Source: Pseudomonas capeferrum (GTDB lineage: Bacteria; Pseudomonadota; Gammaproteobacteria; Pseudomonadales; Pseudomonadaceae). From it: DNA of 64,000 nucleotides. The notes under the pieces were generated by a model. It worked only from the letters and a program-made list of their open reading frames with translations, had not been told where the DNA came from and searched no databases. Shown piece by piece: positions 20,557-39,804 of this stretch. The DNA lies in contig NZ_JAAMQM010000019.1 of NCBI RefSeq assembly GCF_013523055.1, forward strand, positions 62,001-126,000. The letters run 5' to 3'. Made by a program: the position numbers and the translations under genes. The first letter of the stretch is position 1. Each line of letters begins with the position of its first letter.

Positions 20557-20656
20557 GAACAATGACTGAGGCGTGGCTTTGAGTCTGGGGTTCTGGCGAA
20601 CCCCAGGCCACGGCACAATACTGAGTTGCGGATAATGTGTATTATGTTAAACGACA

Positions 20657-20678
20657 GGCCATGTCAAGGATGTTCATG
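20657..20678 (+). repeat. attachment-like core copy 1 (left)
   Basis: GGCCATGT, spacer CAAGGA, TGTTCATG. The same two arms occur at 20734 and 37612 in the same orientation with different 6-bp spacers. Extended arms CAGNNCATG and CATGNNCTG form an imperfect inverted repeat. The flank to the right (ATGAGCTG, then CCACTAA) also resembles the flank right of copy 3. Confidence 0.75.
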
Positions 20679-20733
20679 AGCTGCCTAAGCCACTAATTCG
20701 ACAAATCCTCGTCTGGTGTCCACTCTCTCAACG

Positions 20734-20755
20734 GGCCATGTTCCTCTTGTTCATG
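20734..20755 (+). repeat. attachment-like core copy 2, just upstream of intA
   Basis: GGCCATGT, spacer TCCTCT, TGTTCATG. The arms are identical to copy 1 and the spacer is completely different. It lies 27 bp before the intA start, so it is the more likely true left end of the present element, with copy 1 left from an earlier event. Confidence 0.72.
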
Positions 20756-20782
20756 GCAAGTCCTTGAATGAGGTGACTGACG

Positions 20783-22036: not shown

Positions 22037-22047
22037 GGAGGTTCGCC

Positions 22048-25680: not shown

Positions 25681-26072
25681 CGCGACGACATACGTTGAGG
25701 GGCGGCACGTTGGACGAGGCAATCGACACCCTCCTCGCCCAAATGGTTAGCTTGGGATTGGAGCTCGCGCCGATCTCACGCCCCGAAGTGCAGCGTCGAT
25801 TGGGCCTGACGAGCCGTGCTACCTTGGTGGGAGAACGAGGTCAGCGGATCGAGTCTGCCCGTATCGCACAATTGAGGGAAAGCGGAAGAGATCCGGGCGG
25901 CGCCCGGCGGCGAAGAAGCTTCGAAGAGCGCATTGCTCATCTACAGGCGGAAAATGCCGCCTTGATTACAGAGCGCGATAGGCTCTACGAAGCCTTATTC
26001 GAGATCGCGCACAGGTGCTTGTTAAAAGGCGTTGATTTGGAAGACATGATGGACTGCTTACGTAAACGATAA
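25677..26072 (+). CDS. cds4: small coiled-coil accessory protein (Cds4/TnpC-like)
   Basis: The product has 131 residues. The central region is very basic (GARRRRSFEERI) and residues about 78-112 form a coiled coil (ERIAHLQAENAALITERDRL). The start overlaps the intB stop by 4 bp. In strand-biased circularizing elements a small fourth protein follows intB and influences circularization, and Tn554 TnpC has a comparable place and size. The function here is inferred from position. No catalytic motif is visible. Confidence 0.75.
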   Translation: MTRRHTLRGGTLDEAIDTLLAQMVSLGLELAPISRPEVQRRLGLTSRATLVGERGQRIESARIAQLRESGRDPGGARRRRSFEERIAHLQAENAALITERDRLYEALFEIAHRCLLKGVDLEDMMDCLRKR

Positions 26073-26146
26073 CCACAGGTTTCACCGCGTTCCCAGCTAG
26101 GTTCTGACGTAGACATGGGTACCGCCTCAGACCGTTGAAGATTGTG

Positions 26147-26416
26147 TTACCTGAGATCGCTACGGACCCGCTCAAAGATTTCTTCTAGGTTGATGTCTGG
26201 CTCTTTCTCAAGATAGCAGGCGACAATCAGGGAAACTGGGTGGACACCTATGGTGCTGGCAAGCACGTCGACCTTCTCCACCGTCGCGCCTTTGATACCA
26301 CGTTCCAGCGAGCTCAAAAACGTACGGCTGCTGACCAATGAAAAATCCTCCTGGGTCATCCCCCTGCTAATGCGCAAGGCGCGAAGTGCTGAGCCAAAGG
26401 CTTTTTTGACTTCCAT
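26147..26416 (-). CDS. HTH (XRE-family) transcriptional regulator
   Basis: The product has 89 residues from the ATG at 26416; a TTG at 26431 would add five residues but has no better ribosome-binding site. The helix-turn-helix is LRALRISRGMTQEDFSLVSS followed by RTFLSSLERG, a classical XRE/Cro fold, and the C-terminal part is helical and acidic. It is divergent from the 143-codon gene at 26500 with an 83-bp gap, so it may control that gene and itself. It sits between the recombination module and the cargo, a common place for an element regulator. Confidence 0.85.
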   Translation of the reverse strand: MEVKKAFGSALRALRISRGMTQEDFSLVSSRTFLSSLERGIKGATVEKVDVLASTIGVHPVSLIVACYLEKEPDINLEEIFERVRSDLR

Positions 26417-26499
26417 TTGCTCTACTCGCAAATGAAAAGATAAGGCCTTTTTTGCACCCTATAGGGCTACGATCTATAGTGTTCATTTGGAGGATTTTT

Positions 26500-26931
26500 A
26501 TGTTCAGAACGTACCAGCGAGATGCGATGCTGCTGTCGTCGGAGCTAGAGCCGGACCTTCACCTGTGGCCACGGGTGGAGCAGATAATCCTGCTGCCTTG
26601 GTTTTATGTCACAGCTTTGAGACTTGGCGATCCGTGCTCGCGGCACATGCTGATGATTTCCGACGTGCAGACGTTAGAGGATCTCAGCTTGGCCGGACCG
26701 GAGGGTGTGCAAATCGAGTCCATCCTGTTGGCGACGCCGCCCGCGATGAATGGCGAGAACAGATGGCTGATGGAGCAACTCCGAGAGATAGCATACGTGC
26801 CAAAAACCAAAAGTAGCGCTCGCCACTACCGTTTCCGGGTTGCAGAACAGGCTGTATATGCCAGTTTTTGGGACGTTGGCCTAGAAATTGAACAAGGTAA
26901 CGTCAGTCGAATTGTCTTCTCTGCGGGCTGA
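26500..26931 (+). CDS. hypothetical protein next to the XRE regulator
   Basis: The product has 143 residues, MFRTYQRDAMLLSSELEPDL onwards. The ATG at 26500 was chosen because TTGGAGGA precedes it. There is no transmembrane segment and no recognised motif; the N-terminal half is mixed alpha/beta (VEQIILLPWFYVTALRLGDP) and the C-terminal part has RHYRFRVAEQAVYASFWDVG. It is divergent from the XRE gene, an arrangement seen in element-borne regulator and toxin-like pairs, but I do not assign such a role. A short hairpin and an eight-T run follow the stop. Confidence 0.65.
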   Translation: MFRTYQRDAMLLSSELEPDLHLWPRVEQIILLPWFYVTALRLGDPCSRHMLMISDVQTLEDLSLAGPEGVQIESILLATPPAMNGENRWLMEQLREIAYVPKTKSSARHYRFRVAEQAVYASFWDVGLEIEQGNVSRIVFSAG

Positions 26932-26932
26932 T

Positions 26933-26955
26933 TCCGCTGTTCGGATCTTTTTTTT
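26933..26955 (+). terminator. probable weak terminator after the 143-codon gene
   Basis: TCCG-CTGTT-CGGA forms a 4-bp hairpin followed within two bases by eight T (26948-26955). The stem is short, so termination may be partial. It separates the XRE/hypothetical pair from the retron. Confidence 0.45.
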
Positions 26956-27019
26956 CATGCGCACCGACCGCTGACTGATCCCATCTGCCTTTCCAGTACA
27001 TACGCGATCGTGAAAGCCA

Positions 27020-27048
27020 TTGATAGGGAGCGTCAACGTAGATACCAT
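27020..27048 (+). promoter_or_regulatory. predicted sigma70 promoter of the retron RNA
   Basis: TTGATA (27020-27025) and TACCAT (27043-27048) are separated by exactly 17 bp. Transcription would begin near 27055, three to five bases before the a1 repeat of the predicted retron RNA, which is where a retron promoter should place it. Confidence 0.5.
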
Positions 27049-27054
27049 ATGCTT

Positions 27055-27172
27055 TGGGGCTCAGGACCCGCATTTCTGAGATGCATACGTCTCAGCTTGT
27101 AGTGCTTTTACCTTTGACGCTAACGCGTTTTGCCGCCATGTAGTTCTCGCGGTTGTTGGGGTCCTGAGTTAC
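27055..27172 (+). ncRNA. predicted retron msr-msd RNA
   Basis: CTCAGGACCC (27060-27069) pairs perfectly with GGGTCCTGAG (27159-27168), extendable by two G-U pairs. This is the a1/a2 repeat that brackets retron RNAs, and it lies 36 bp upstream of the RT gene as expected. Inside is CTGAGA-8 nt-TCTCAG (27076-27095) followed by an AGC that could hold the branching guanosine, then a CCGC/GCGG hairpin (27133-27152). The total of about 115 nt is compact; Ec67 has about 58 nt of RNA and 67 nt of DNA in its mature form. The branch site and the msd end are not fixed by this reading. Confidence 0.62.
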
Positions 27173-27203
27173 CCACTATATTCTGTAGGAGCATGAACCT
27201 GCA

Positions 27204-28910
27204 ATGGATGCTTTTTTTCCTTTTGAAACTTCGCTCAAATACAAAATTGCTAGTAATAAAGAGCTGGCTGCTTTGTTAGGAGTGAGTACAGCCAAGCTGA
27301 CTTACTATGCTTACTATTTAGCCGATAGCGAGAAATACCGAGCATTTACTATTAAAAAGCGCTCTGGTGGAGATCGACTGATTGAGGCCCCAAACAAAGG
27401 ACTTAAAGATCTACAAAAAAGATTTGCAGATCTTGTGGAGCAAAATTACAAGCCGCGGGCATGCGTATTCGCTTATGTGAAGGATAAAGGTATTGTAGAA
27501 CATGCAACAACCCATGTCGGGCAACGCTGGTTGCTGCGCTTAGATCTTAAAGACTTCTTTCACACGATTAGCATTGTCCGTGTTTCTGGCGTACTTCGCC
27601 GTGCCCCATACAACTTTGCAGAGTCGCCTGCGAATACTGCTGCTCGTTTGTGTACACTCGGTAGGCGATTACCTCAAGGATCACCCGCTAGCCCTGTACT
27701 GAGCAATATTCTGTGCAGGGGGTTGGACTACAAACTTAAAGAGATCGCCGCAACGAACAAGTGCTATTACACGCGGTACGCCGACGATATATTTATCTCT
27801 ACCAACGGTAGTGCTTTTCCATCTTCTATTGCAGTCCGAAGCGAAGATGGGTCTGCAGAGCTAAGCGACACAATTAAAAAAATTATTACCGAAGCCGGGT
27901 TTAATATAAATCTTGATAAAACTATTTTGCGCAAAAGATCTGAGCGGCAATTGGTTACTGGTGTAGTGGTAAATAGAAAGCTGAGCGTACCGAAAGAATA
28001 TATCAAATCAATCCGTGCAGCACTTTACGCTTGGGAGCAGCATGGGCTCGAGGCCGCGGAAGACTACTGGAAGCGAAAAATAAACAAAAGCAACAGATTT
28101 GATGGCGAATCACCACAAATGAAACTGGTGCTTCGCGGAAAAGTAACGCATGTGGGTCATGTTAAAGGCTATTCAGACGGGACCTTTTTATCACTAGTAA
28201 AACGCCTGCAAGCTTTGGATGCCGATTACCATATAGATGAGCAAAAGGTTTTACGTACGATTACTGGCGAGATACATATCTATACAGAGGGTGTCACTGA
28301 TACGAAGCACTTTATGGCGGCTCTTCGAGCATTTCAAAGGCGTGGGGAGTTTGTCGGGCTAAATTTAATTTTTAGAAACTCAAAGAAAACAGGAAGCTCA
28401 GGCCTCAAAGCCCTATGCGAAAACCTCAGTGAAACGCTTCAAAGGCATCTTACCATCTGTATTTTTGATCGAGATGAACGCCCTATTATCAACGAGATGA
28501 GCGGATCTCCAGGAAGCTACAGAGACCATACAAATAATGTCTTTAGCTTGATAATACCCATCCCTGATTTCAGAGATCCAGGCGACCTAATCTGCATTGA
28601 GCATCTTTACCACGACGCACAAATATATACCAGCGACAGTCAAGGGCGGCGATTGTACTCTAAAGACGAATTCGATTCTTTAGGCTGCCATAAAAATAAC
28701 CCACACTTATTTTGCAGGGTTAGCAAGCAATCTTTAATATATGACGACCAGGTCATCAACCTTCATGAAAAAAGAAATGTAGCATTGCCAAAAAATAAGT
28801 TTGCCGACTATATTTATAATGGAGCCCCACCTTTTAGTAATATCGACTTCAGTGGCTTCCGAGGTACCTTCGCTCAGATCGTGGCAATAGCGGCTTCGTA
28901 CGGTCGATGA
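27204..28910 (+). CDS. retron reverse transcriptase fused to a TOPRIM domain (Ec67-like)
   Basis: The product has 568 residues. The RT domain (about 1-290) has LDLKDFF (113-119), LPQGSPASP (156-164), YADD (192-195) and the retron-type VTG (251-253). The C-terminal half has a TOPRIM domain: HIYTEGVTDTKHF with the metal-binding Glu362 and FDRDE with Asp422 and Asp424. This fusion and length match the Ec67 (Eco5) retron, a known anti-phage retron whose effector is the TOPRIM part. The enzyme would make msDNA from the RNA encoded just upstream. All catalytic residues are present. The gene is AT-rich compared with the chromosome, which supports transfer. Confidence 0.9.
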   Translation: MDAFFPFETSLKYKIASNKELAALLGVSTAKLTYYAYYLADSEKYRAFTIKKRSGGDRLIEAPNKGLKDLQKRFADLVEQNYKPRACVFAYVKDKGIVEHATTHVGQRWLLRLDLKDFFHTISIVRVSGVLRRAPYNFAESPANTAARLCTLGRRLPQGSPASPVLSNILCRGLDYKLKEIAATNKCYYTRYADDIFISTNGSAFPSSIAVRSEDGSAELSDTIKKIITEAGFNINLDKTILRKRSERQLVTGVVVNRKLSVPKEYIKSIRAALYAWEQHGLEAAEDYWKRKINKSNRFDGESPQMKLVLRGKVTHVGHVKGYSDGTFLSLVKRLQALDADYHIDEQKVLRTITGEIHIYTEGVTDTKHFMAALRAFQRRGEFVGLNLIFRNSKKTGSSGLKALCENLSETLQRHLTICIFDRDERPIINEMSGSPGSYRDHTNNVFSLIIPIPDFRDPGDLICIEHLYHDAQIYTSDSQGRRLYSKDEFDSLGCHKNNPHLFCRVSKQSLIYDDQVINLHEKRNVALPKNKFADYIYNGAPPFSNIDFSGFRGTFAQIVAIAASYGR

Positions 28911-28926
28911 TATCGGGCGCCCTAAC

Positions 28927-28973
28927 GAATTATAAATATTTTCCCTCGGGACAAAGCATGAATATTATAATTC
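28927..28973. repeat. AT-rich hairpin downstream of the retron
   Basis: GAATTATAAATATT (28927-28940) pairs with AATATTATAATTC (28961-28973) with one bulge, around a 20-nt loop. No T-run follows, so it is not a classical terminator. It may still end or protect the retron transcript. Confidence 0.55.
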
Positions 28974-29033
28974 CTGCTTTTATGGGCTAGGGCCGTAAGG
29001 GTAGCCATGGTAGCTGCATTCATCATATGCACA

Positions 29034-30179
29034 CTAAGTTGAAAAGCCCCTATACGGATTCTTTATTGGCTTATGGCAACTGAACAATGCACTGATTCCG
29101 AACGAATACCTACTAGAGTAGAGCCAGTCAAGAAATATGCTTGAACAAAAATCCAGTAGGCGAGTTTGTAGGTTATCAACAACTTGGTCAGCCGTTCGAA
29201 AATAGTTCTCTGGTCGCACTTTGATCAGCTCAGAAACACCGTCACCTAGTAAAGATCTCAGCTCTTCAGCCAAACCAGCCCTTCGGATATTGACCACTGT
29301 TTCGGGAGGAACATTTCCGAGCCACTCCAGATTTTTATCTGCTTCAGCGCTCAACGCGCGCATTACATGCATGCTTTTTCTAGCATCGGATGGACTCTCT
29401 AACGCTCCACCTTGGTAATCCAGCATCCAGTTGAAGTACTTTCACGACGTCTCTGCGCCTATAAATGGGGTCCCACCAAAATGATTAGCGCACTGCTGCG
29501 AGGCCAATGCTTGGGGCATGCGCCCTAAACATGCGTGCAACACATGATTTCCTGCTATTGCAGGATCCAAGCCCGGAGTGGCTCCTTCTTGCAGAGCCCT
29601 GGTCAGCTGCGCACGAGCATCTCCGCCCCACTCTGTGCTGATGACCAGTCGGTCAGCACCTTTAAGTTCGGCAAGCAAGGCGTCGATAGAATGCAGCGCT
29701 CCGCAGAAATCCGCTAAGTGTTCAACGGACTCGAAATCACGGCCAAAGAGGTATCCGCCATGACCACAGGATAGAGGCCGGCTCTGCTCAACTAGCAGCG
29801 CTCTATCTTCATCATTCATATCCCTTGGATTGGGTGAAATAACCACCAATGGAGGATGTACTTCAGCTAGTGCGATATCCCTATATGTCATCGCATTCAA
29901 AACGTGCTTGATAAATAGCTCAATGACCTGCTTAGCTGGCAATGCATCAAAAAGCGGAGCGATCTTGAGAATCGGGCAAGGGAGCACGATAGTGTCGATG
30001 TACAGACCAGCAGTTGATACAACGTTTTCCCAATGTGCGGGGAACAGATCACCAGAAAAGGTAGCTTTGAACTGGCGGCCATCTTGAATGTGGAATGCTG
30101 CGGGGTCGGACACCGACGACCAGAATTCCCTAATACCCTCTGCGAGTTCGGGCAAGGCTTTCGCGCAATGCTTTACCAA
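29034..30179 (-). pseudogene. hypothetical gene split by an in-frame TGA
   Basis: Two open stretches on the minus strand, 30179-29442 (245 codons) and 29426-29034, are in the same frame and separated only by one TGA at 29442-29444: the sequence reads GAETS, stop, KYFNWMLDYQGG without a break in character. A CGA to TGA change would explain it. The combined product is about 381 residues, probably soluble, with no recognised domain (LFPAHWENVVSTAGLYIDTI, PLVVISPNPRDMNDEDRALL). The start is a TTG and there is no good ribosome-binding site, so the 5' end may also be damaged. It lies between retron and Thoeris on the opposite strand. Function unknown. Confidence 0.62.
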
Positions 30180-30382
30180 CTCGGCATCCCTTTGTGACCT
30201 TCGGTGGGTACGGCTGAGCTCGCATCGTCTACTACCTTAGTCGTAGGGAAGCCTATCAGTTGACATGAGACATCGGCGCCGACCCGCGGCCGGTGGGGAT
30301 TGCTCATAGGAAGCGACACTGGCCAGTGCGTAGTAGCGCGGTGTTGCCCCCTGCCCACGGCTTGAGTCACGGATTAAAAGAT
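30180..30382. other. intergenic region upstream of the Thoeris operon
   Basis: About 200 bp with no supported gene. It should contain the promoter for the Thoeris operon. I could not identify a good -35/-10 pair. Its 3' end runs into an inverted repeat that covers the first start codon. Confidence 0.4.
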
Positions 30383-30420
30383 GGCATTTTGCCCTGGTGA
30401 TGCTAGGAAGCCAAAATGCC
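30383..30420 (+). promoter_or_regulatory. inverted repeat covering the start codon of the first TIR gene
   Basis: GGCATTTTG (30383-30391) pairs with CAAAATGCC (30412-30420). The ATG (30416-30418) is inside the right arm and the AGGAAG ribosome-binding site lies in the loop. In RNA this 9-bp hairpin could limit translation of the first TIR gene. Confidence 0.5.
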
Positions 30421-30913
30421 GATTCGCCAGTCAGATTTGCTCAATTCAAGCGTTAATCGTTCATTCGCTGGGCAATCGCGCCCACGCGTGGGTCAACTAA
30501 CGGCTTTTCTAAGCCACAGCCACCAAGACGCATTGCTTGCCCTCGGGCTCCAGGAAATGCTGAAAAAAGCGGGCTGGGACGTTTATATCGACTGGCAGGA
30601 CACGACAATGCCCGCCACGCCCGACGGTGAGACAGCCTTTAACATCAAGGTCGCTATTGTCCGCGCAGACTGGTTTCTCTTTCTGGCGACCCAAAACTCT
30701 ATGGCATCGCGATGGTGTCCGTGGGAAATCGGCTTTGCCGATGGCAAAAAAGCTCATGATCGCATCGCCATCATTCCGACCGCGGACAATCAGGGCAATT
30801 TCTACGGGAATGAGTACCTCAACCTTTACAGTAGTATCGACGTTGCCCAACACGCCTCCGGCCTCGCACTGTTTGATACGCGGGGCAACGGCACGTGGGT
30901 ACACAACCTTTAA
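30416..30913 (+). CDS. TIR-domain protein, first gene of the Thoeris operon (ThsB-type sensor)
   Basis: The product has 165 residues. The TIR fold is clear: TAFLSHSHQDALLALGLQEM (first strand and helix), WDVYIDWQD, DWFLFLATQNS, and CPWEIGFADG with the catalytic Glu of NAD-cleaving TIR domains. ThsB-type proteins recognise phage components and make a cyclic ADP-ribose isomer from NAD. It is directly upstream of thsA (21 bp), so it is very likely one of its signal makers. It differs strongly from the 147-residue ThsB downstream, suggesting a different phage trigger. The start codon lies in a hairpin. Confidence 0.87.
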   Translation: MPIRQSDLLNSSVNRSFAGQSRPRVGQLTAFLSHSHQDALLALGLQEMLKKAGWDVYIDWQDTTMPATPDGETAFNIKVAIVRADWFLFLATQNSMASRWCPWEIGFADGKKAHDRIAIIPTADNQGNFYGNEYLNLYSSIDVAQHASGLALFDTRGNGTWVHNL

Positions 30914-30934
30914 TCCCATCGGTAGTGCAAGAGT

Positions 30935-32368
30935 ATGAAAAAGGATCATTTGCGGCTCGTTGACACGCTCACGAAGGAGATGGCCGAGGGGAATCTCGCG
31001 ATTTTCGCGGGCGCCGGCTTTTCGCAGGGCGCTGGCTTTGTGAACTGGAAAACGCTGCTCAAGCCCATTGCCGATGAGCTGGATCTGGACATCGACAAAG
31101 AGACGGATCTGGTTGCGTTGGCGCAGTACCATTCAAACGCTAATGGAGCCAACCGCTCTAAGCTTGATCAGATGCTGGTGACTGAATTTTCAACAAAAGT
31201 AAAAGTTACAGATAACCACAGGATCCTGGCCAGGTTGCCGATCCAGACCTACTGGACAACTAACTACGACAGGCTGATTGAGACGGCCCTTGAGGAAAAC
31301 GAAAAGGTCGCTGACGTCAAACACACGGTCAAGCAACTGGCTACGACCAAGCCCAAACGCGATGCTGTCGTGTACAAAATGCACGGTGACGTCGAACACG
31401 CTTCAGAGGCAGTGCTGATCCGCGATGACTACGAGCGTTATCACGTGAAGATGCAGCCGTACATCACCGCGCTCAGTGGCGATCTGATTTCCAAGACCTT
31501 TCTGTTTCTGGGCTTTAGCTTTACCGATCCGAACCTCGACTACATCCTGAGCCGGGTACGCATCCAATACGCCAAGCACCAGCGCCAGCACCACTGTATC
31601 TTGCGCAAGGTCAGCCAGGGGAAGGATGAAGATCAGGCCGATTTCGAGTACCGACTTCGAAAGGAAGAGTTGTTCAAACAGGAGCTTCTTCGCTTCGGGA
31701 TCAAAGCAGTCTACGTCGATGATTTCAAGGAGATCACTGCGATCCTAGAAGAAATTGAACATCGCCACAAACGCAAAACCATTTTCATCTCCGGGGCGGC
31801 TCATGACTACAGCCCTTGGTCACAGGGCGAATCCGAACACTTCGTTCACGACCTCAGCAAAGAGATCAGTAAGGCTGGGTTCCGCGTTATTTCAGGCTTT
31901 GGTTTGGGTATCGGCAGCGCAGTGATCTCAGGCGTCATTGAGCAGACCATCATGAACGGCCATCGACTGGACAGCGACCAACTGATCCTCAGGCCGTTCC
32001 CGCAAAGCCAATCGGGCGATCGACCCTTAAAGGAGCTGTGGACGGAATACCGGCGCGACATGTTGGCCCATGCGGGCATTGCCATCTTCCTCTTCGGAAA
32101 CAAGGTCAGCCCAGGCGGTGAAGTAGTGCTTTCAAATGGCATGCGTGAAGAGTTCGATCTGGCCGTCGCTGCTGGCGTCTTCGTTATTCCCATAGGTATC
32201 ACCGGCTCGATCTCGGCAGAGCTCTGGAAAGAGGTCATCGATTCCTACGACGAAACGAAATACGAACATGGTAAAAAAATCACCCCCCTGCTGCAGGAAT
32301 TGGGCACCGAAGGTACCGACCTTGGTCGTGCACACGACGTGATCCTGCGCCTGCTGCCACTCATTTAA
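30935..32368 (+). CDS. thsA: Thoeris effector ThsA (SIR2-SLOG NADase)
   Basis: The product has 477 residues, the same size as ThsA of Bacillus cereus MSX-D12 (476). The N-terminal SIR2 domain (about 1-280) has IFAGAGFSQGAGF (23-35), the catalytic Asn110 in YWTTNYDRL and His150 in YKMHGD, corresponding to the N112 and H152 known to be needed there. The C-terminal SLOG domain (about 281-477) has TIFISGAAHDYSP, VISGFGLGIGSAV and ELWTEYRRDML, which includes Arg373 and Arg374 where the signal-binding arginine is expected. On binding the TIR-made cyclic ADP-ribose it depletes NAD and kills the infected cell. The gene sits between two TIR genes with short gaps. Confidence 0.93.
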   Translation: MKKDHLRLVDTLTKEMAEGNLAIFAGAGFSQGAGFVNWKTLLKPIADELDLDIDKETDLVALAQYHSNANGANRSKLDQMLVTEFSTKVKVTDNHRILARLPIQTYWTTNYDRLIETALEENEKVADVKHTVKQLATTKPKRDAVVYKMHGDVEHASEAVLIRDDYERYHVKMQPYITALSGDLISKTFLFLGFSFTDPNLDYILSRVRIQYAKHQRQHHCILRKVSQGKDEDQADFEYRLRKEELFKQELLRFGIKAVYVDDFKEITAILEEIEHRHKRKTIFISGAAHDYSPWSQGESEHFVHDLSKEISKAGFRVISGFGLGIGSAVISGVIEQTIMNGHRLDSDQLILRPFPQSQSGDRPLKELWTEYRRDMLAHAGIAIFLFGNKVSPGGEVVLSNGMREEFDLAVAAGVFVIPIGITGSISAELWKEVIDSYDETKYEHGKKITPLLQELGTEGTDLGRAHDVILRLLPLI

Positions 32369-32380
32369 AGGACGAATATC

Positions 32381-32824
32381 ATGGCAAGAAAGGTGTTTTT
32401 CAGCTTCCAGTATGAGGATGTTCATCGCGCAATGAACGTGCGTAACAGCAATGTTATCGCTTCAGACCAGAAGGTCGGTTTCATAGACAAGGCTGACTTT
32501 GAAGAAGTCGAACGTCAAGGCGATGCGGCCATCAAGAAATGGATCAACGACCAGCTGCATGGCACCAGCGTGACTGTCGTTCTTGTGGGGGCAACTACCG
32601 ACAAGAGCAAGTGGGTGAAGTATGAAATCGAGCAAAGCGTTGCCCGGGGCAATGGCATCCTGACCGTCGACATCAGCAAAATCGCCAACCTGCAAGGCGA
32701 TACGACAAACTGCTGCAGTTTGCGTGTTTCAGGCGCGCCTCACTATCTGTGGAACACCAATAACGGCCGTGAAAACCTCGGAAAGTGGATCGAAGCAGCC
32801 GCAAAGGCCGCTGGCAAGCCGTAA
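32381..32824 (+). CDS. thsB: Thoeris protein ThsB (TIR-like)
   Basis: The product has 147 residues and resembles classical ThsB closely: it opens ARKVFFSFQYEDVHRAMNVR, as ThsB opens with VFFSFHYQDV, and holds VTVVLVGATTDKSKWVKYEI with a conserved Glu in the YEIEQS segment, followed by RGNGILTVDISKI. ThsB senses phage proteins and cyclises NAD to the signal read by ThsA. It follows thsA by 12 bp. The typical C-terminal region about the YLW motif (APHYLWNTNNGRE) is present. It appears intact. Confidence 0.92.
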   Translation: MARKVFFSFQYEDVHRAMNVRNSNVIASDQKVGFIDKADFEEVERQGDAAIKKWINDQLHGTSVTVVLVGATTDKSKWVKYEIEQSVARGNGILTVDISKIANLQGDTTNCCSLRVSGAPHYLWNTNNGRENLGKWIEAAAKAAGKP

Positions 32825-32833
32825 ACCCGGCTG

Positions 32834-32851
32834 GGGCGCCGCGCGGCGCCC
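32834..32851. terminator. GC-rich hairpin between thsB and the third TIR gene
   Basis: GGGCGCC-GCGC-GGCGCCC is a perfect 7-bp stem (18-bp palindrome) followed by TTTCTC. It may act as a partial terminator, so that the third TIR gene is transcribed less than thsA and thsB. Confidence 0.6.
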
Positions 32852-32875
32852 TTTCTCAGAACAAGGATTTAACTG

Positions 32876-33703
32876 ATGTACGTAGGCTTCGAAATCGAAC
32901 ATTACCAACCCATCCATCAACCCCATGATTTCCGTATCGACAGTTACATTCAAGATGCCCAGAGGCGGGTCGCTAACCTCGCCCAGTTCATTATCGGGTC
33001 GTATAACCAGCACAGTATCCTGGATGCCGAAGCCCTATCGGCGGCGATTTTCCCAGAAACCAAGTGCGACGTATTTCTTTCCCATTCTCATGCGGATCAG
33101 CGAAATGCTATCGATCTAGCGCTCGCGCTGCGCAAGCACGGCCTGAAAGTCTTCGTCGACTCCACGGTGTGGGGCTATTTCGGCGACCTGGTGGCCAAAA
33201 TCATCGCGGGAACTCGGCCATTGGATAAAGAAACGAAGGATGGGCACATTCATCGTGTCCATGCAGATGTCCACATGATGCTCGCTGGCGCCCTTCACCG
33301 CACCATTGCCCGAGCTGAAACCTTCGTATTCGTGCGTTCTGAAAAATCTGTGCCCGTGAGCTTTGGCGACAGGGCTAGAACATTTTCACCCTGGATCTAC
33401 TCAGAATTGCAGTTTAGCTTCCAGGTACAGCACGCCACGCCTAAACGAATTCGAGAGCGACTAACAGGCGCTACCCTCGACAGCGTCAAGGGGTTCAATA
33501 ACCTGAGCCTTGAGAGCATGCAGCATCTAATGGCCTTCAGGGCTTTCAACGATCACCTGCCGCCCGTACAAGGCGCTCAACTGCGAGAGTGGCTTGTTCA
33601 ACAGCCGTCCACCACCCGTGGAGAAGTCGTGCTGGATGCCCTCTACAGTCGATTCAATCTCCCTAGCAAATATCAACAGCAGCGCGCATCACTCACGATG
33701 TAG
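32876..33703 (+). CDS. TIR-domain protein with extra N-terminal and C-terminal regions
   Basis: The product has 275 residues. An N-terminal extension of about 60 residues (MYVGFEIEHYQPIHQPHDFR) precedes a TIR domain: KCDVFLSHSHADQRNAIDLA, GLKVFVDSTVWGYFGDLV, then RAETFVFVRSEKS and FSPWIYSELQFSF, where the Glu of SEL is the probable catalytic residue. The C-terminal 75 residues are helical. It is 52 bp after thsB behind a hairpin. It is likely a third sensor of the same Thoeris system, but it could be a separate TIR effector. Confidence 0.82.
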   Translation: MYVGFEIEHYQPIHQPHDFRIDSYIQDAQRRVANLAQFIIGSYNQHSILDAEALSAAIFPETKCDVFLSHSHADQRNAIDLALALRKHGLKVFVDSTVWGYFGDLVAKIIAGTRPLDKETKDGHIHRVHADVHMMLAGALHRTIARAETFVFVRSEKSVPVSFGDRARTFSPWIYSELQFSFQVQHATPKRIRERLTGATLDSVKGFNNLSLESMQHLMAFRAFNDHLPPVQGAQLREWLVQQPSTTRGEVVLDALYSRFNLPSKYQQQRASLTM

Positions 33704-34177
33704 GACAGCAACTGCCTCTGCTGCTGGCGTCAGGAGCCTGCCATCGGCGCGACGTGCAAAACCTGCACATTGCGCCCGTGGCCCAGGCAGCATGTCGCGC
33801 CCGCCAGCGCAATTTCTAAGCTCGGCTATCCTGACGTGTCCATGCCGCTTATGGAGCAGCCCCCGCTGCTGCAGGGCTGCAAGACGGCACACTGTTGAGT
33901 TTGTCCCTCACCAGACGATTCGTTGCGTGGATGGCATGAAATCTACGGTGGGCACAAGTGCCCAATCGGGTTTCCAGTGTGTCCGCGCGGTAAGGACTTG
34001 CGCTTGTCGGCTCGAGCGGGTGCTTATTTAACCCGCCTCGTGGTCTTCATCGGCGAGCTCGGCGTCGGCACTTTAGAGGTGACTGTGACTCATGGGCCGA
34101 AGGCTGCGCTCCGCGGCCAATAGCCATTCTTGCGCGCAAAATGGTTACCCGGCCGCTGGGGCAGGCACGCTCCAGGA
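33704..34177. other. non-coding stretch between third and fourth TIR genes
   Basis: These 474 bp hold several short open frames but none with a credible ribosome-binding site or recognisable product. The genes on both sides end here (convergent), so terminators are expected, yet I saw no clear hairpin with a T-run. It could be debris from an older gene or a recombination joint. Confidence 0.4.
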
Positions 34178-34774
34178 TTACAGGAAAATCTTGGGGCCGC
34201 CCAGATGCCCCGGAAACCTCGGATCTAACAAAGACCCCGATCCGTACGGGCTGCGGATCCCACGACCTGGGGCGGGCCTAGGAGAGCTGTTTGCAAGCTT
34301 TTCTTTAGTGATCACCGGATAGAGCCCCAGATACTCCTGGCCTTCAAACGGCGAGTCCGGCTTCTCCAACACCGGAAGAACCGCTACTGCGCCGTTCTTG
34401 AAGCCATCGAAATAGCCCAACTCCCAAGGCATCCATTTGGACTTCGGTGCGTTCTCAGTGGCGAGGTAGAGCAGTGAATTGGATTGGCGCATGCGCTTGC
34501 GCAAAAGGTCGGCAGTCTTCGCAGTAACGCGATCACGCTCGAGGGCCTGATCGTCGATCCAGTCTACGTAAACCTTTTGACCCTCCGCCTCAAGAAGGAC
34601 TTTGATTCCAAGGACGAGTTCGGCGTCAACCATGGCGTGAGAAAGGAAGGTGTCAAACCGATCAGCGTCTTTGTAATTTTTTTGGACTTCGTTGAGGGCT
34701 TCACGCGGGCTGCGGTTACCCCGAGTGGCTTGTTGCGCTGCCTTACGTGCTTCTGCCTGAGTAAAAAACGCCAT
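34178..34774 (-). CDS. TIR-domain protein on the opposite strand
   Basis: The product has 198 residues from the ATG at 34774, preceded by GGAGATCGG; a longer start at 34840 lacks a good site. A helical leader of about 50 residues (AEARKAAQQATRGNRSPREA) precedes a TIR domain: RFDTFLSHAMVDAELVLGIK, KVYVDWIDD, NSLLYLATENA and MPWELGYFDGF with the catalytic Glu. It resembles the 165-residue TIR protein more than classical ThsB. Being convergent to the Thoeris operon it has its own promoter. It may serve the same ThsA as a fourth sensor. Confidence 0.85.
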   Translation of the reverse strand: MAFFTQAEARKAAQQATRGNRSPREALNEVQKNYKDADRFDTFLSHAMVDAELVLGIKVLLEAEGQKVYVDWIDDQALERDRVTAKTADLLRKRMRQSNSLLYLATENAPKSKWMPWELGYFDGFKNGAVAVLPVLEKPDSPFEGQEYLGLYPVITKEKLANSSPRPAPGRGIRSPYGSGSLLDPRFPGHLGGPKIFL

Positions 34775-35005
34775 TCCGATCTCCAATGGGCTGTCCGGGA
34801 ACCCAAAAAACATGACCAATTGCCGCTCTACGTCGGGCATTGTACATTTCGTGTTTGTTGAAGGGCATCAATTGGGTGAAAACCCGTGGCATTGTAATCC
34901 GGATCGAAACGAACCGGGTGGCACGTCCGCCCACGTGGATCGCCGTTATGTATCATCATGGCATGTTGGGGCCGGCGACCCCGTTTTGGTAATCAGGAGC
35001 TGTCT

Positions 35006-36760
35006 ATGCTGCAGATCAACACCGCTAAGCTGTATGCAACAGGGATTGGAAGAACCAACCAGCTTCGCGGTGTGCTCTACACAAATTTAAAGCTGCCTTG
35101 GCGCGATGACATAGTCACGAAAGTCGGGACGCTGCGCAGCACCGATGGCAGGAAAGGTAGCCAGGCTCTTGTCTATGAGCTGGAAGAGCATATGGAACAG
35201 GGTGAGGATGCGCCGGGTATTTTGGTGTCCCACACCGTCCAGCCTTACATCCAGGATTTTTCAGCCGTGGCCTCCTTTGCGCTCGACGCGATCGTTACGC
35301 CGGATCCTGAGTTGACGGCTCAACTAACCAATGGATCGCCCGGGTTGAGCTCCTACCACCCTCCTTCGCAGTTCCTCAGACGTTGCTTCGACTCTGAGCT
35401 CTACATCAAGGAATCAGACGCTCAGGAGCTGATCGATTTTTGTGAACAACTGGTTGGCCTTGAGCGCCGCCTTTATCTGGGTGCTATGAGGGCTATCAAG
35501 ACCTATGTGTCCGGCATCCATCGCATTCGAGACGATCTGGGGCTTGCCTACACTTTGATGGTCTCCGCTATAGAATCGCTTGCGCAAGAATTCGATGGAT
35601 ACAGTTCAGCATGGGATGACGTCGACGAGCGAAAACGGGATGCCATTGATGCGGCACTTGAATCAGTAGAACCCGACGCCGCGCAAGCCGTCAGAGCTGC
35701 AGTTCTATCGGCGGAGCACCTTTCCCTAGGGCGCCGATACCGAGAGTTCGTGGTGAGCCATGTTGACGCAAGCTACTACCGAACGGGCGATGCTCTGGTA
35801 GGTCATCCCATTGCTCAATGCGAGCTTGTGGAAGCCTTGCGGCAGGCTTACTCAATGCGGTCAAAGTATGTCCACCAGATCCAGGCACTCCCAAACGAAC
35901 TGACCCTTCCTCACGGTCATTCCGAGGTCAGCTATGTCAACCGGCAGCCAACACTTACTTTCCAAGGGCTCGCTCGCCTGACTCGTCACGTCATCAGATC
36001 CTTCGTCCATCGAGGCCATAAGTTGGAACAGGAGATCTATGACTACAGCTTGGAACGATCGGGCGTCGTGGTGATGCAATTGGCACCCCAGTATTGGGTA
36101 GGACATCCTTTAAGCTCTCCCAAGGAGTCGCGTAGACGTCTGGAAGGCTTCCTTCAGCAGTTGGCAGCTGTGGAAGCCCGTAGCGCAGATGCTCAAATCA
36201 CGGATCTACGCCCGGTGCTGGCAGATATCGAACGCACCGTTGCGCAGGCGCCCAAGCGCGATCGTCCAGCAATGGTCGCTCTTCATATTCTGTTCAATAT
36301 CAACGTCCCTGAAAGGTTTCGATCGCCCAACTGCGAGGCGGTACATGAAGCGCTTGAACAATACACGCATACAATGTCAGCCGAAGCCCTTGTGCTGCTG
36401 TGCTACGTCATTGATTCAGCTGCTCTGTGGGATCTGCAGGTGCACCGCCAAGGCCACGACGACTTCTTCAGAAAGCGATCAAAGCCCAGCGGCTTACAGG
36501 TACCCAGATTTTTTGAAGCGGCTATCAGCCTCACTCTCGCCGAGCGCTACCGCAGCGTGGGCGATATCGAGCAAAGCCGGGCTTTACTCAGTTTCGCAGT
36601 TAGCAATTATCCTGGTCATGCAGGACTGCTGGCGGCCGAGAACTCGTTTACTGGGGACGAGGCTTTAACTTGGCGGAATATCCTCATTCCTAAAGCGGTC
36701 GATGCTCCAAATGAGGATACTCACGGAGGCCCGATCAACGGCGAAATTTCTCCACAATAA
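35006..36760 (+). CDS. large protein with HEPN-type R-x4-H motif
   Basis: The product has 584 residues from the ATG at 35006, which follows CAGGAGC. The region about 150-300 looks like an Apea-type HEPN domain: LGLAYTLMVSAIESLAQEFD, a long helical stretch, then LRQAYSMRSKYVHQIQ with Arg285 and His290 in the R-x4-H pattern of HEPN ribonucleases. The N-terminal 150 residues are mixed alpha/beta; the C-terminal 270 are helical (LLSFAVSNYPGHAGLLAAEN may be repeat-like). HEPN RNases act in many abortive-infection systems. The family name is not certain, and no antitoxin-like partner is visible. It is divergent from the TIR gene at 34774. Confidence 0.6.
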   Translation: MLQINTAKLYATGIGRTNQLRGVLYTNLKLPWRDDIVTKVGTLRSTDGRKGSQALVYELEEHMEQGEDAPGILVSHTVQPYIQDFSAVASFALDAIVTPDPELTAQLTNGSPGLSSYHPPSQFLRRCFDSELYIKESDAQELIDFCEQLVGLERRLYLGAMRAIKTYVSGIHRIRDDLGLAYTLMVSAIESLAQEFDGYSSAWDDVDERKRDAIDAALESVEPDAAQAVRAAVLSAEHLSLGRRYREFVVSHVDASYYRTGDALVGHPIAQCELVEALRQAYSMRSKYVHQIQALPNELTLPHGHSEVSYVNRQPTLTFQGLARLTRHVIRSFVHRGHKLEQEIYDYSLERSGVVVMQLAPQYWVGHPLSSPKESRRRLEGFLQQLAAVEARSADAQITDLRPVLADIERTVAQAPKRDRPAMVALHILFNINVPERFRSPNCEAVHEALEQYTHTMSAEALVLLCYVIDSAALWDLQVHRQGHDDFFRKRSKPSGLQVPRFFEAAISLTLAERYRSVGDIEQSRALLSFAVSNYPGHAGLLAAENSFTGDEALTWRNILIPKAVDAPNEDTHGGPINGEISPQ

Positions 36761-36810
36761 GCTCAGATGCTTGTCGCGAGTCCTTGATCACTGGGTAGAA
36801 AGGTCTGGGT

Positions 36811-37047
36811 TCACAAACCCAGATCCCGGAGAACCCAGCATCCCGCATAGCGCTCGTGGCATGGCCGCTTTCGATCAGCTTCTTTATCATCTAGACCTTG
36901 AGCATCTTTCTCGTCATCTGCCTCGAATTTGACCCAGTCATAAAGTGAAGGTGTATCAAGCCAGTCGCACAGTAGCTTGATCCCAACCAGTGTCTGGTAC
37001 ATGTACCCGCTGGCGGGTATAGCGCTACGTTTAATGCCCACGCTCAT
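36811..37047 (-). pseudogene. N-terminal remnant of a DUF4297/Cap4-like nuclease
   Basis: The minus strand reads MSVGIKRSAIPASGYMYQTL, then VGIKLLCDWLDTPSLYDWVKF and EADDEKDAQGLDD for about 55 residues before the sequence turns to KEADRKRPCHERYAGC and stops at 78 codons. The SGYxYQ opening and FEADDE-GLDD segment are what I expect at the start of DUF4297-type double-stranded DNA nuclease domains, which run to several hundred residues in Cap4 and Avs-type proteins. The rest is missing, so this is a remnant of a further defence gene. The family call is tentative. Confidence 0.45.
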
Positions 37048-37566
37048 GTCGAAAAGCTCATCTTATCCATGGCTCCTGCTGAATTTGACGCTTGTCTTAC
37101 AGTGTCCGGCAAACCCTTAGTGCTGGGGATAGTACGCCAAAGGGTGGCCTGCCGCGCGACAGCAGTAGCACAGGGCTCTTGATATTCATCCAATAACCTT
37201 GAATTGCTTCGTGTTCCGGGGGCACTACCCCTTATCGTAAGCGGGAAACGGTGTCCTGTCTTTCATGGGGCTCGTTCACGAAGATTGGGCGTGACTCTAC
37301 GATAGTGGCTGATTGATAGCACGCCTATGGGTTAATGGCTCACCGCTGTCGAGCCTTAATCGACATCACCGAAACCAATGCCACACAGCGAGATTCTGGA
37401 CGATAAATCTCACCACCCTCCTCGGCTTCATGACAACCCTTTGTAACTCTCCGGCTTGCCGATGGGCGGAAGTCGGCATCCGTTGCAGACGTATCAGAAC
37501 ATTTTCATGAACAGGATTCGATGAACCTAGACGTCGAGAGACAGCAGCAAAACGCCATAGGATCAA
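37048..37566. other. right terminal region of the element, no gene seen
   Basis: About 520 bp without a supported gene. It includes TTTTCATGAACAGGATTC around 37500, which contains a partial match to a core arm in the reverse direction, but the second arm is absent. The rest holds no clear repeat or RNA. Confidence 0.4.
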
Positions 37567-37616
37567 TGACCTTTACTTATGGTGAACAACGTACATCGCC
37601 CATAAGTTAAAGGTCA
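37567..37616. repeat. inverted repeat next to the right core copy
   Basis: TGACCTTTACTTATGG (37567-37582) pairs with CCATAAGTTAAAGGTCA (37600-37616) with one bulge around a 17-nt loop. The right arm runs into core copy 3, so the hairpin could expose or hide the recombination site in single-stranded form. Confidence 0.65.
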
Positions 37617-37633
37617 TGTCATAGATGTTCATG
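37612..37633 (+). repeat. attachment-like core copy 3 (right end)
   Basis: GGTCATGT, spacer CATAGA, TGTTCATG. It differs from the left copies at one arm base and in the spacer. It is followed by AGCTGTCC and CCACTAA, similar to the flank of copy 1. It marks the right end of the element. Confidence 0.75.
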
Positions 37634-37903
37634 AGCTGTCCACTTCCACTAACCCCCGGTCGGTTTTGCACAAAACCCCGTTTAGTAAAAAATCAGCAGC
37701 GCTGTAACCGGTTTCGATAGCACCTGTTAGCGTTGGCAGAGCTAGCCGACGGCACCCGCGCCGTCGCCGAGGCGTTCATTCCCGCCGGCACCGCGGCCAA
37801 CACCGTACGCAGTGGCCAAAGCGCTCTCGCCTACTGAGGTCGCGGTACAGTTCCATCGTCCACCACCTAGCCCGACCAGACGCGGGCGGACGCTGGAGCC
37901 ACC

Positions 37904-38361
37904 TGCTCTGCAGAGGGCCAGTTCAAACAGCAGCACTCACTCAATGGCTGGCATCGATTTGACGAGAACTGGTCAATGGGCGCCGAAATGGTCTACGGCC
38001 ATCAGGCAGGTGATGGCAAAACCTCGACGGTCGACATCGTGAGTGGCCCCGGGTTGACGGCGCACGCTGGTGGGGCGCCAATGTTGTTCTGACTTATCAG
38101 CAACGCAAGGATCTGTCGTTCTCCGTGCGCGCAGAGCATTTCGATGACCAAGACGGATTCATCCTGTTCCCCTCCTCTACGTCCCGCGGCGCGTTCAATG
38201 CGTTGACTGCCGGCGTGCGCTATGACTTCAACAAATACCTGACGCTACGCCCGGAGCTGCGTTATGACAGGTTCAACGGTCTCAACGACGCCCACCCGTT
38301 TGGCCAAGGTGATGCGCGCAATCAATTGACGGGGACTGTGGAAGCCTTGGTGTATTTCTGA
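37904..38361 (+). pseudogene. 3' fragment of an outer-membrane porin, frameshifted
   Basis: Two frames together resemble the last 145 residues of the intact porin at 38452-39804. The first frame gives QQHSLNGWHRFDENWSMGAE and VYGHQAGDGKTSTVDIVSGP; after a 1-bp shift near 38060 the second gives WWGANVVLTYQ, RAEHFDDQDGFILFPSSTS and the C-terminal TGTVEALVYF ending in Phe, as outer-membrane barrels do. The 5' two thirds are absent. It faces the intact copy, tail to tail, which suggests an old duplication and then loss. The piece 37721-37837 before it is an unrelated open fragment that I could not identify. Confidence 0.8.
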
Positions 38362-38372
38362 TAGCTCCTGGA

Positions 38373-38426
38373 CGCCATCACCGCCATCACCGCCATCACC
38401 GCCATCACCGCCATCACCGCCATGAC
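38373..38426. repeat. 9-bp tandem repeat (CGCCATCAC)n
   Basis: CGCCATCAC occurs five times perfectly and a sixth time as CGCCATGAC, back to back, between the stop codons of the porin fragment and the intact convergent porin gene. It lies outside both genes. Copy number may vary between strains. Confidence 0.9.
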
Positions 38427-38451
38427 CAGTGGCGATGGCGCCAGCGCCGGA

Positions 38452-39804
38452 TCAGAAGTAGTAGAGCGCTTCGACCATCGTGCTCAGTTGTGACCGATCG
38501 CGACCGTTGCCGAAAGGTCGATCATGTTCGCGGGCATCAAACCAGTCGTAACGCAACTCGGGGCGCAGCGACAGATGCTTGTTGACCTCATAACGAACAC
38601 CGGTGGTGACAGCGTTGAAGTCACCGGGGGAGGTACTCGTGGGAAACAGGATAAAACCGTCCGGATCGCTGAAGTGCTCGCCACGCAGGGACCACGTCAG
38701 ATCTTGCCGAACCTGGTAGGTGACGACAGCGTTGGCGCCCCACCAATGCGCCCCGCTGAAACCTGGACCTTGAACGATATCAACGGTCGACGCCTGGCCA
38801 TCACCGTCCTGACGGCCGTAGACCAGCTCAGCGCCCATCGACCAGTGTTGATCGAATTTGTGCCATCCGTTCAGCGAATGCTGCTGCTTGAGCTGATTGG
38901 ACGGCGAGACAATGCGCGAAGGCGGCCCTTGTACATCGGAGAAGTCATCATTCTGCTCATTGCCAACGATGAACTCGTAGTCGAGCCAGGTGTTCATGTC
39001 CGCCGTGCGCCAGCGCAACGCACCGGTCAGCGATTTATCCGAGTTGTTGTCCCGCAGGTTGCTCCAGCCCTGCACGACGCCCAACTCGACACCCAATATG
39101 CCCAAGTCCCCTTGGTAAACGCGTGTGCTCGCAAGCACACCTGCACCCGTACTGGGTTCGCTGATAAATGCGTAGGTTTTACTGGCGAACGGATTGCGCG
39201 CGAAGCGCACGTTTGGCGGGATTTCATAACCCATTGCCAAGCCGAAGACCCCCGCCATGACACTGACGCCTGGGCCGTAAGGCAAGTAGACGGTGGCAGC
39301 GCCATTGGGAATGGCGAGGAAGTAGTCTTTGTCTCGCTGGGCTTTGGCGTTGTCTTTTTCATTGATGTCCAAGCCCATGTCCCAACCGTAGGTTCGGGCG
39401 AACTGGGCGTTACGACCGTAGTTCAATTCCAGCGTAAATCCGAAGGTTGCTTGCTCTGGTTTCGGGCCGGGCAAAGGAGTGATTCGAGGTATGAATGTCC
39501 CCTTGAGTTGCTTGTCGACAAACAGGTGGAGGCTGCCCAGCTCCAGACCTTCGTCGGACATACCCGTAATGGGCAAATTGCTCAGACCGTCTTTGCGCTC
39601 ATCGTGTGTAGAACGGTTATTGCGTGAGTAACCAATGTCTAGAAGATTGGAAACGGTGATGCCGTAGTTCTGCTTCAGGCTTTCGCCGAACAGACTACGA
39701 AAGAGTGTGCCCTCTCCCGGTTGTTCTTTTTCATCGGCATGACAATTAACAATCGCGAGGGCGGCCAAAACCGCGCCAAACGCTTTCACCTTGACGTTAT
39801 TCAT
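38452..39804 (-). CDS. outer-membrane beta-barrel porin (BBP2/OmpL-like)
   Basis: The product has 450 residues with a signal peptide (KAFGAVLAALAIVNCHA) and many alternating beta-strand segments ending in VEALYYF, with the terminal Phe recognised by the BAM machinery. Stretches such as TFGFTLELNYGRNAQFARTY and LRGEHFSDPDGFILFPTSTS match the BBP2-type porin family. It is the last gene of the monooxygenase-dioxygenase operon, so it probably admits the growth substrate through the outer membrane. A broken paralogue lies next to it. The exact substrate is unknown. Confidence 0.87.
   Translation of the reverse strand: MNNVKVKAFGAVLAALAIVNCHADEKEQPGEGTLFRSLFGESLKQNYGITVSNLLDIGYSRNNRSTHDERKDGLSNLPITGMSDEGLELGSLHLFVDKQLKGTFIPRITPLPGPKPEQATFGFTLELNYGRNAQFARTYGWDMGLDINEKDNAKAQRDKDYFLAIPNGAATVYLPYGPGVSVMAGVFGLAMGYEIPPNVRFARNPFASKTYAFISEPSTGAGVLASTRVYQGDLGILGVELGVVQGWSNLRDNNSDKSLTGALRWRTADMNTWLDYEFIVGNEQNDDFSDVQGPPSRIVSPSNQLKQQHSLNGWHKFDQHWSMGAELVYGRQDGDGQASTVDIVQGPGFSGAHWWGANAVVTYQVRQDLTWSLRGEHFSDPDGFILFPTSTSPGDFNAVTTGVRYEVNKHLSLRPELRYDWFDAREHDRPFGNGRDRSQLSTMVEALYYF

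Follow-up and report, generated by a model that had tools for sequence, protein, structure and literature searches.

The gene at positions 35006-36760 (+) of a 64,000-nucleotide stretch of Pseudomonas capeferrum DNA, referred to below as the window, raises the question of whether its product is a stand-alone defence RNase, as a first-pass annotation had proposed from an R-x4-H pattern of the kind found in HEPN ribonucleases. The question has three parts, i.e., whether the protein has a HEPN fold, whether it works alone, and whether it serves defence. Our reading, held with a probability of about 0.6, is that the gene is probably a one-gene 'suicide' defence, that is, a single-protein abortive-infection system whose putative RNase belongs to a HEPN family absent from the libraries used.

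Reading frame and selection

The frame 35006-36760 (+) is open over 584 codons, which agrees with the protein of 584 residues described by the first-pass annotation. A mechanical ORF call starts upstream, at the in-frame ATG 34958, and gives 600 amino acids. Position 35006 is preferred as the start because MLQ opens 16 of the 18 rows of alignment A1 at this position (rows L006 and L008 lack their first three residues through trimming). For the copies from Actinomycetota the start is less sure, because the open frame extends further upstream. No promoter-like site was found in 34700-37100.

Compared with the homologue of Pseudomonas sp. JUb42 (locus L001, 88% protein identity), the whole gene has a dN/dS of 0.135; by part, the ratio is 0.112 for residues 1-134, 0.080 for residues 135-345, the HEPN part and the lowest of the three, and 0.194 for residues 346-584. 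The gene is under purifying selection, and is thus maintained and protein-coding. The C-terminal region is the fastest-changing part (0.194 versus 0.080 in the HEPN part), as would be expected of contact with a changing phage partner, but weaker constraint alone would give the same result.

Conservation of the motif

The R-x4-H pattern is present as LRQAYSMRSKYVH, with R285 and H290 numbered as in the first-pass annotation; this candidate RNase motif (R285-SKYV-H290, 35858..35875, +) lies at the end of helix 3 (271-291). The bare pattern was rejected as evidence, since at least one R-x4-H occurs in 82% of 2000 composition shuffles of the protein (mean 1.6 per shuffle). Conservation was therefore counted among 28 homologues, from which two identical sequences (L005, equal to L004, and L037, equal to L029) were removed, leaving 26 distinct rows with 20-88% identity to the window protein. 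R285 and H290 are conserved in all 26, as the first-pass annotation had required of its proposal, and the other R-x5-H or R-x6-H matches in the window protein are conserved in 8, 6 and 1 of the 26. Judged from this alignment, the conservation of R285 and H290 is beyond chance, unlike the bare pattern.

In total, 11 residues are invariant in the 26 rows: V186, E190, S191, W203, R244, Y282, R285, S286, H290, G321 and R327. The acidic residue E190 (35573..35575, +) lies in helix 2, and its context in the window protein is E-SLA-Q, i.e., x3-Q and not the common E-x3-[KR]. In the N-terminal region, Y25, N27 and G41 are conserved in 25 of the 26 rows. It should be noted that the count retained L003, whose last part diverges from the alignment. 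It left aside identical or near copies (L031 and L032, equal to L030, and L035, with the same identity values as L034), a frame split into two annotated ORFs (L018), a truncated copy (L022), an unconfirmed match (L016), and fragments (L014, L015 and L024, C-terminal; L027, HEPN region only; L039, 40 residues). The distant HEPN-only relative also contains R-x4-H: the frame L027:1444-2853 (-) encodes 470 amino acids with another plan and a HEPN-like region related to the family (E 2e-6), and has neither an aligned C-terminal TPR-like part nor a Pfam match.

Predicted fold and domain arrangement

The full-length model is of moderate quality (pLDDT 71.1, pTM 0.55), with a low-confidence N-terminal part. 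Whole-protein searches by Foldseek and VIA-align were dominated by the C-terminal region (for VIA-align, mostly residues 355-564); a separate model was therefore predicted for the HEPN region. This model of residues 78-345 (35237..36040, +; model m44105d395779), built from 18 sequences, is confident, with a pLDDT of 87.4 and a pTM of 0.82. It contains helices at residues 79-93, 101-108, 136-151, 154-172, 178-196, 208-217, 223-236, 239-252, 271-291, 297-300 and 319-336, and strands 308-311 and 314-317, which form a beta-hairpin after the R-x4-H motif (308-317).

The HEPN plan comprises two alpha-hairpins, an insert between helices 2 and 3, and a motif that ends helix 3, and in Csx1 a beta-hairpin follows the motif, according to the accessible text of PMC3710099. 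In the predicted model we read residues 154-172 and 178-196 as HEPN helices 1 and 2, with E190 in helix 2; residues 208-252, comprising the helices 208-217, 223-236 and 239-252, as the insert; residues 271-291, ending in R285-H290, as helix 3; and residues 319-336 as helix 4. The order of the helices, the insert, the position of the motif and the hairpin after it agree with that plan as far as PMC3710099 gives it. Structure prediction thus returned a HEPN-like four-helix bundle of the kind that the first-pass annotation had called for, with core helices 154-172, 178-196, 271-291 and 319-336, and we consider it very probable that the protein has a HEPN fold.

Two further regions flank this bundle. 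Residues 1-77 (35006..35236, +) are predicted to be beta-rich, with strands 14-26, 42-45 and 53-64, in pLDDT blocks of 40-75 of the full-length model, and are a possible sensor or restraint. Residues 350-564 (36053..36697, +) form an all-helical, TPR-like region in the model. TPR_14 of Pfam matches 7 of the 18 members (best E 0.0031), and VIA-align rows for this region reach Z 7.8, largely with helical-repeat chains, a weak likeness.

In Foldseek searches with the whole protein and with the HEPN-region model, neither PDB nor viral structures reached E <= 0.001; the first row from the viral structure library was a 222-aa protein (E 0.28, probability 0.93). VIA-align was run on the 388 chains ranked highest by Foldseek, and the best 25 of these 388 rows were considered. 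Row 1 is AbiV (9bj7_A; 135/165 residues, rmsd 4.1, 6% identity) at Z 7.2, a score that may reflect a common helical-bundle arrangement, as may any below about 13, best rows of 7-8 being typical where there is no clear match. Row 2 is LsoA (5hy3_A; Z 3.9, 125 residues), an RNase LS toxin, and the rows below it contain rhodopsins and others at Z <= 3.8. The weight of the AbiV row is raised by the gap below row 1 and by the invariant motif; we take it as moderate support for a HEPN fold. PMC3710099 counts both AbiV and RNase LS among the HEPN families. AbiV and LsoA were the only solved HEPN chains noticed in the best 25 of the 388 rows, which is no argument against other families.

Comparison with known HEPN families

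The 18 members have no meaningful match in Pfam, PADLOC or PHROGs, and a search of the window protein against NCBIfam was likewise negative. HEPN models in Pfam match none of the 18 members at E <= 1. Among PDB sequences, the window protein has no match and the rows obtained with the alignment are insignificant (best E 0.34); hhalign comparison to small ApeA, DUF4145 and AbiV alignments gave a best E of 0.014 with a probability of 3%. Two hits of the window protein, HTH_RNase_II (E 0.19) and Cas11a (E 0.023), were rejected, each being matched by one of the 18 members.

The lack of a significant HEPN match by Foldseek and by the profile comparisons is what would be expected if the protein had no HEPN domain and were a helical protein in which Y282, R285, S286 and H290 play another role. 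We consider this quite unlikely, since the invariance of these residues, the helix order, the insert and the place of the motif fit HEPN, and both leading VIA-align rows among the best 25 of 388 are HEPN proteins.

With a HEPN fold as the preferred reading, the protein can be set beside the named HEPN families. AbiV (HEPN_AbiV, PF18728; PDB 9bj7) provides the best structural row for the HEPN region and is itself an abortive-infection gene, of which a copy lies 4.7 kb from the homologue at L019. However, AbiV has about 200 aa, lacks the terminal regions of the window protein and shares 6% identity with it; moreover, no member matches the AbiV models (PF18728, PDLC02353) of Pfam and PADLOC at E <= 1. 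AbiV is typically without the histidine of R-x4-H (PMC3710099), so that the match informs on the fold and not on the chemistry.

ApeA has a role in defence, and the first-pass annotation had pointed to large HEPN proteins of this type. Like the window protein, ApeA (HEPN_Apea, PF18739) is a HEPN protein with a beta-rich N-terminal region (PMC3710099). Membership in ApeA was rejected, with none of the 18 members matching PF18739 at E <= 1 and an hhalign probability below 1% against the window family. The plans differ as well: in the two ApeA-type proteins compared (L050 and L051) the HEPN domain is C-terminal, whereas in the window family it is central and is followed by about 215 mostly helical residues. 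The ApeA plan of ApeA-NTD1, about 300 aa, plus a C-terminal HEPN domain is thus not that of the window protein, whose core spans about 154-336 and which is helical to residue 564. The protein is therefore filed neither as ApeA nor as AbiV, yet it may work like them.

RNase LS (RnlA/LsoA) keeps R-x4-6-H, as does the window family, and is encoded in an operon with the antitoxin RnlB (PMC3710099), whereas the window gene has no such partner; a PDB sequence match of RNase LS to the window protein was not obtained. In the LA2681 family, HEPN is fused to TPR (PMC3710099, Table 1), which resembles the window plan; this comparison is by name only, and the name LA2681 is absent among the Pfam matches of the 18 members.

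Mobility and the host element

Comparison of locus L001 (13.75 kb) with the 64-kb window gives a single blastn match at E <= 1e-8, at 34929..36880 (+) with 85.6% identity, which extends 77 bp upstream and 120 bp downstream of the gene. Because the shared DNA is limited to the gene, we regard the gene as a one-gene cassette. At 26 other homologue loci, no ORF within 3 kb matches a window neighbour (blastp, 1e-5). Both results uphold the term 'stand-alone' used in the first-pass annotation.

These data bear on the possibility that the gene is one half of a toxin-antitoxin pair, with a small unannotated ORF or an RNA as the antitoxin. Some homologues are indeed preceded by short ORFs; however, a conserved small upstream partner was rejected, as the four short upstream ORFs compared are mutually unlike. 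In addition, no Rfam family reached the threshold in 26000-38500, and no neighbour is conserved across clades. Such a pair is the least probable of the readings that we weighed. As a separate observation, a gene of 284-286 aa lies directly 3' of the homologue at two loci of the same genus (L040:10338-11198 and L041:10402-11256, 83% identical), and is absent downstream of the homologue in all other loci compared.

The one-gene cassette lies inside a tyrosine-recombinase element of about 17 kb (20656-37640) with 30-bp imperfect direct repeats, to which L091:4787-17835 is related. The left repeat (20656..20685, +) equals the right one in 26 of 30 bases, and the right repeat (37611..37640, +) equals the left-end copy in L091 in 30 of 30. 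Between the repeats lie the genes for recombinases and for a reverse transcriptase, a Thoeris locus that includes four TIR genes, and the window gene, which is the last ORF >= 100 aa before the right repeat; its place at the defence-rich end of the element is thus as first described. The related element (L091, genome G029 of the same genus) shares the recombinase end (86-87% DNA identity) and also the right end (96% over window 36887-37227), and carries different cargo, i.e., ORFs of 721, 489 and 1464 aa, of which the last is weakly Avs1b-like (E 2.8e-11) and the two others have no PADLOC match. Because the ends are the same and the cargo differs, we place the window gene at the end of a bay whose cargo can be replaced; the stretch shared with G029 starts 7 bp beyond the end of that shared with L001.

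The Thoeris locus (30416..34840; Pfam, PADLOC) consists of one ThsA gene (30935-32368) and four different TIR/ThsB-like genes, three on the forward strand (30416-30913, 32381-32824 and 32876-33703) and one on the opposite strand (34178-34840), which constitutes a multi-sensor arrangement. The divergent starts of the last TIR gene and of the window gene, 34840 and 35006, are separated by 165 bp in the same element, and the window gene could on this account be an accessory or second effector of Thoeris controlled by the TIR gene. We hold this to be very improbable: the 88% identical homologue at L001 shares the DNA of the gene alone with the window and is located near PifA, and the 26 other homologues have no match to a window neighbour within 3 kb. 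The Thoeris locus is not judged to be part of the system of the window gene.

Several other features of the element and its surroundings were observed. The reverse transcriptase (27204-28910, 568 aa) has RT-TIR_XII and RT-Toprim_I-C as its best PADLOC models, and RVT_1 as the sole Pfam match over the cut-off, with its C-terminal part unassigned. A 55-bp sequence at 37225-37279 recurs in other genomes of the genus, at several positions, and also close to the beginning of two contigs of the same genome; it may be a small repeat or the end of an insertion sequence. Just outside the element, 37919-38895 contains an inverted self-match with 67% identity, in which a fragment, ORF 38125-38361 (+), resembles the C-terminal part of the facing 450-aa ORF 38452-39804 (-), in our view porin-like.

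Distribution of relatives

Relatives were found at 10 loci of genome contigs, in 9 plasmid records (5 of them covering >= 80%) and in one faecal phage record. Searches with subset alignments found 12 further relative loci in IMG/VR viral contigs, one of which amounts to 40 residues, and one more; four single-protein scans of viral contigs found no relative. Among 298 genomes of the window's genus, six match, namely the genome itself, two with full-length copies, two with C-terminal fragments and one unconfirmed. Among 398 genomes of the phylum, three match: the genome itself, one with a divergent full-length copy and one with the HEPN-only relative. A search of 5,426 E. coli genomes with the DNA of two members was negative. 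The family spans Pseudomonadota, Actinomycetota, Bacillota and viruses, and its occurrence is rare and patchy. The sister of the window protein in the tree is L001 (support 100/100), and this pair joins copies from Cupriavidus, Dyella and two genomes of the window's genus (93/94), a grouping that is as expected of a transferred gene; the deeper order is unsure because of long branches.

Among the IMG/VR contigs L028-L038, except L036, identity of the gene is 64-100% in the pairs listed, and flanking DNA is common to several viral contigs. In L033 and L038, the homologue is the one ORF >= 100 aa that lies on the strand opposite to its neighbours, and the long ORFs on either side look like phage structural genes. 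Added phage genes that serve the lysogen, known as 'morons', usually sit in such a place, and a moron-like placement suits a gene that excludes other phages.

Defence genes in the neighbourhood

In the stretches examined, recognised defence genes occur at 10 of 18 non-phage loci (the window, L001-L003, L005-L010, L017-L021, and the loci of G267, G283 and G533). In addition to Thoeris at the window locus, these are PifA at L001 (E 4e-94), a partial Avs3a-like gene at L003, a weak Dsr1-like match at L008 (E 5e-12), RmrA at L009 (G812:C7:63901-64971, which is ORF L009:8601-9695 if C7 is that contig), Gabija at L017, AbiE, by annotation, at L018, a CBASS cyclase and AbiV at L019, PD-T7-4 in G533 (L042), and, 1.8 kb from the homologue of G283, which starts at 87621, a reverse transcriptase of type RT_III-A (C8:84603-85781) whose matched stretch contains one stop codon. 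No recognised defence gene was found among the part of the neighbours scanned at the other eight loci (L002, L005, L006, L007, L010, L020, L021 and G267); an annotated restriction endonuclease at L021 was left out of the defence count. These counts back the candidacy for defence put forward by the first-pass annotation, with a putative anti-phage function.

The neighbours were compared to a control. The neighbour set consisted of 95 of 153 ORFs from 13 loci, including the viral contig L045, after exclusion of 53 ORFs from five annotated plasmid loci and of five from L009 and L045; the control set consisted of 95 ORFs out of 189 from 14 arbitrary, mostly chromosomal stretches of other genomes. 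PADLOC was searched at 1e-10. The neighbours matched 148 families (one member each), versus 12 for the control. At least 8 neighbour proteins matched, as counted from the best 25 of the 148 families, and the control matches involved up to 15 ORFs in all, with mad3 in 4 and mad8 in 3. Thus, neighbours and control are not set apart by how many proteins match, but by how strongly they match: at least 6 of the 95 neighbours, and none of the 95 control ORFs (best 1.4e-53, mad3), went beyond 1e-70. The strongest neighbour matches were a reverse transcriptase (6.8e-170), RmrA (2e-153) and Avs3a (1.5e-146), followed by PRTase (6e-105), PifA (4.4e-94) and PD-T7-4 (1.6e-74). Because the control is mostly chromosomal, the result indicates a defence-rich setting and not a link specific to the gene.

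The presence of several members on plasmids or in viral contigs would also be in line with a protein of HEPN fold that serves competition between mobile elements, processing of element RNA or non-catalytic RNA binding, the more so as HEPN families without the motif exist (PMC3710099). However, R285 and H290 are constant in the 26 rows, unlike in the families that have lost the motif, and many copies lie near defence genes; we therefore consider such a role unlikely.

Proposed mode of action and significance

Four elements of the abortive-infection reading are supported: the conserved HEPN-like set of active-site residues, the predicted bundle, the mobility as a single gene and the defence context. 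Under this reading, the protein would dimerise in the manner of HEPN RNases, and R285 and H290 from both subunits would form a metal-independent active site. Because no conserved antitoxin gene lies alongside, we infer that the terminal regions would keep the protein inactive in uninfected cells. Binding of a phage product or an infection signal to the N- or C-terminal region would then activate the protein, and the activated protein would cut tRNA, rRNA or mRNA, such that translation and phage growth stop. We would give even odds to the fuller proposal that this is a separate HEPN family with a plan of its own (including a helical hairpin inserted in the central HEPN domain), which senses infection itself and, by cutting RNA, stalls or kills the cell without an antitoxin or a second-messenger enzyme.

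HEPN abortive-infection RNases are a known kind; it is the family and its plan that are absent from the libraries used. For the validated HEPN systems of PMC13092281 and PMC9519451, the comparison by sequence covered those contained in PADLOC 2023, and the accessible text of PMC3710099, PMC13092281, PMC9519451, PMC9122126 and PMC10799925 does not describe the family. A literature search by accession found no paper naming the four annotated homologues. The HEPN, AbiV and anti-phage literature within the scope of the search contained no report of activity; supplements, most subscription papers and bioRxiv lay outside this scope, so that publication is possible.

HEPN RNases recur across bacterial immunity, and they are recognised mostly via family models; those of the libraries used miss this family. 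Screens based on E. coli would probably miss it as well, given that the 5,426 E. coli genomes contain no match to the DNA of the two members. The family is easy to test, because it consists of a single gene and occurs in three phyla, and its terminal regions would show directly how a lone RNase stays silent without an antitoxin.
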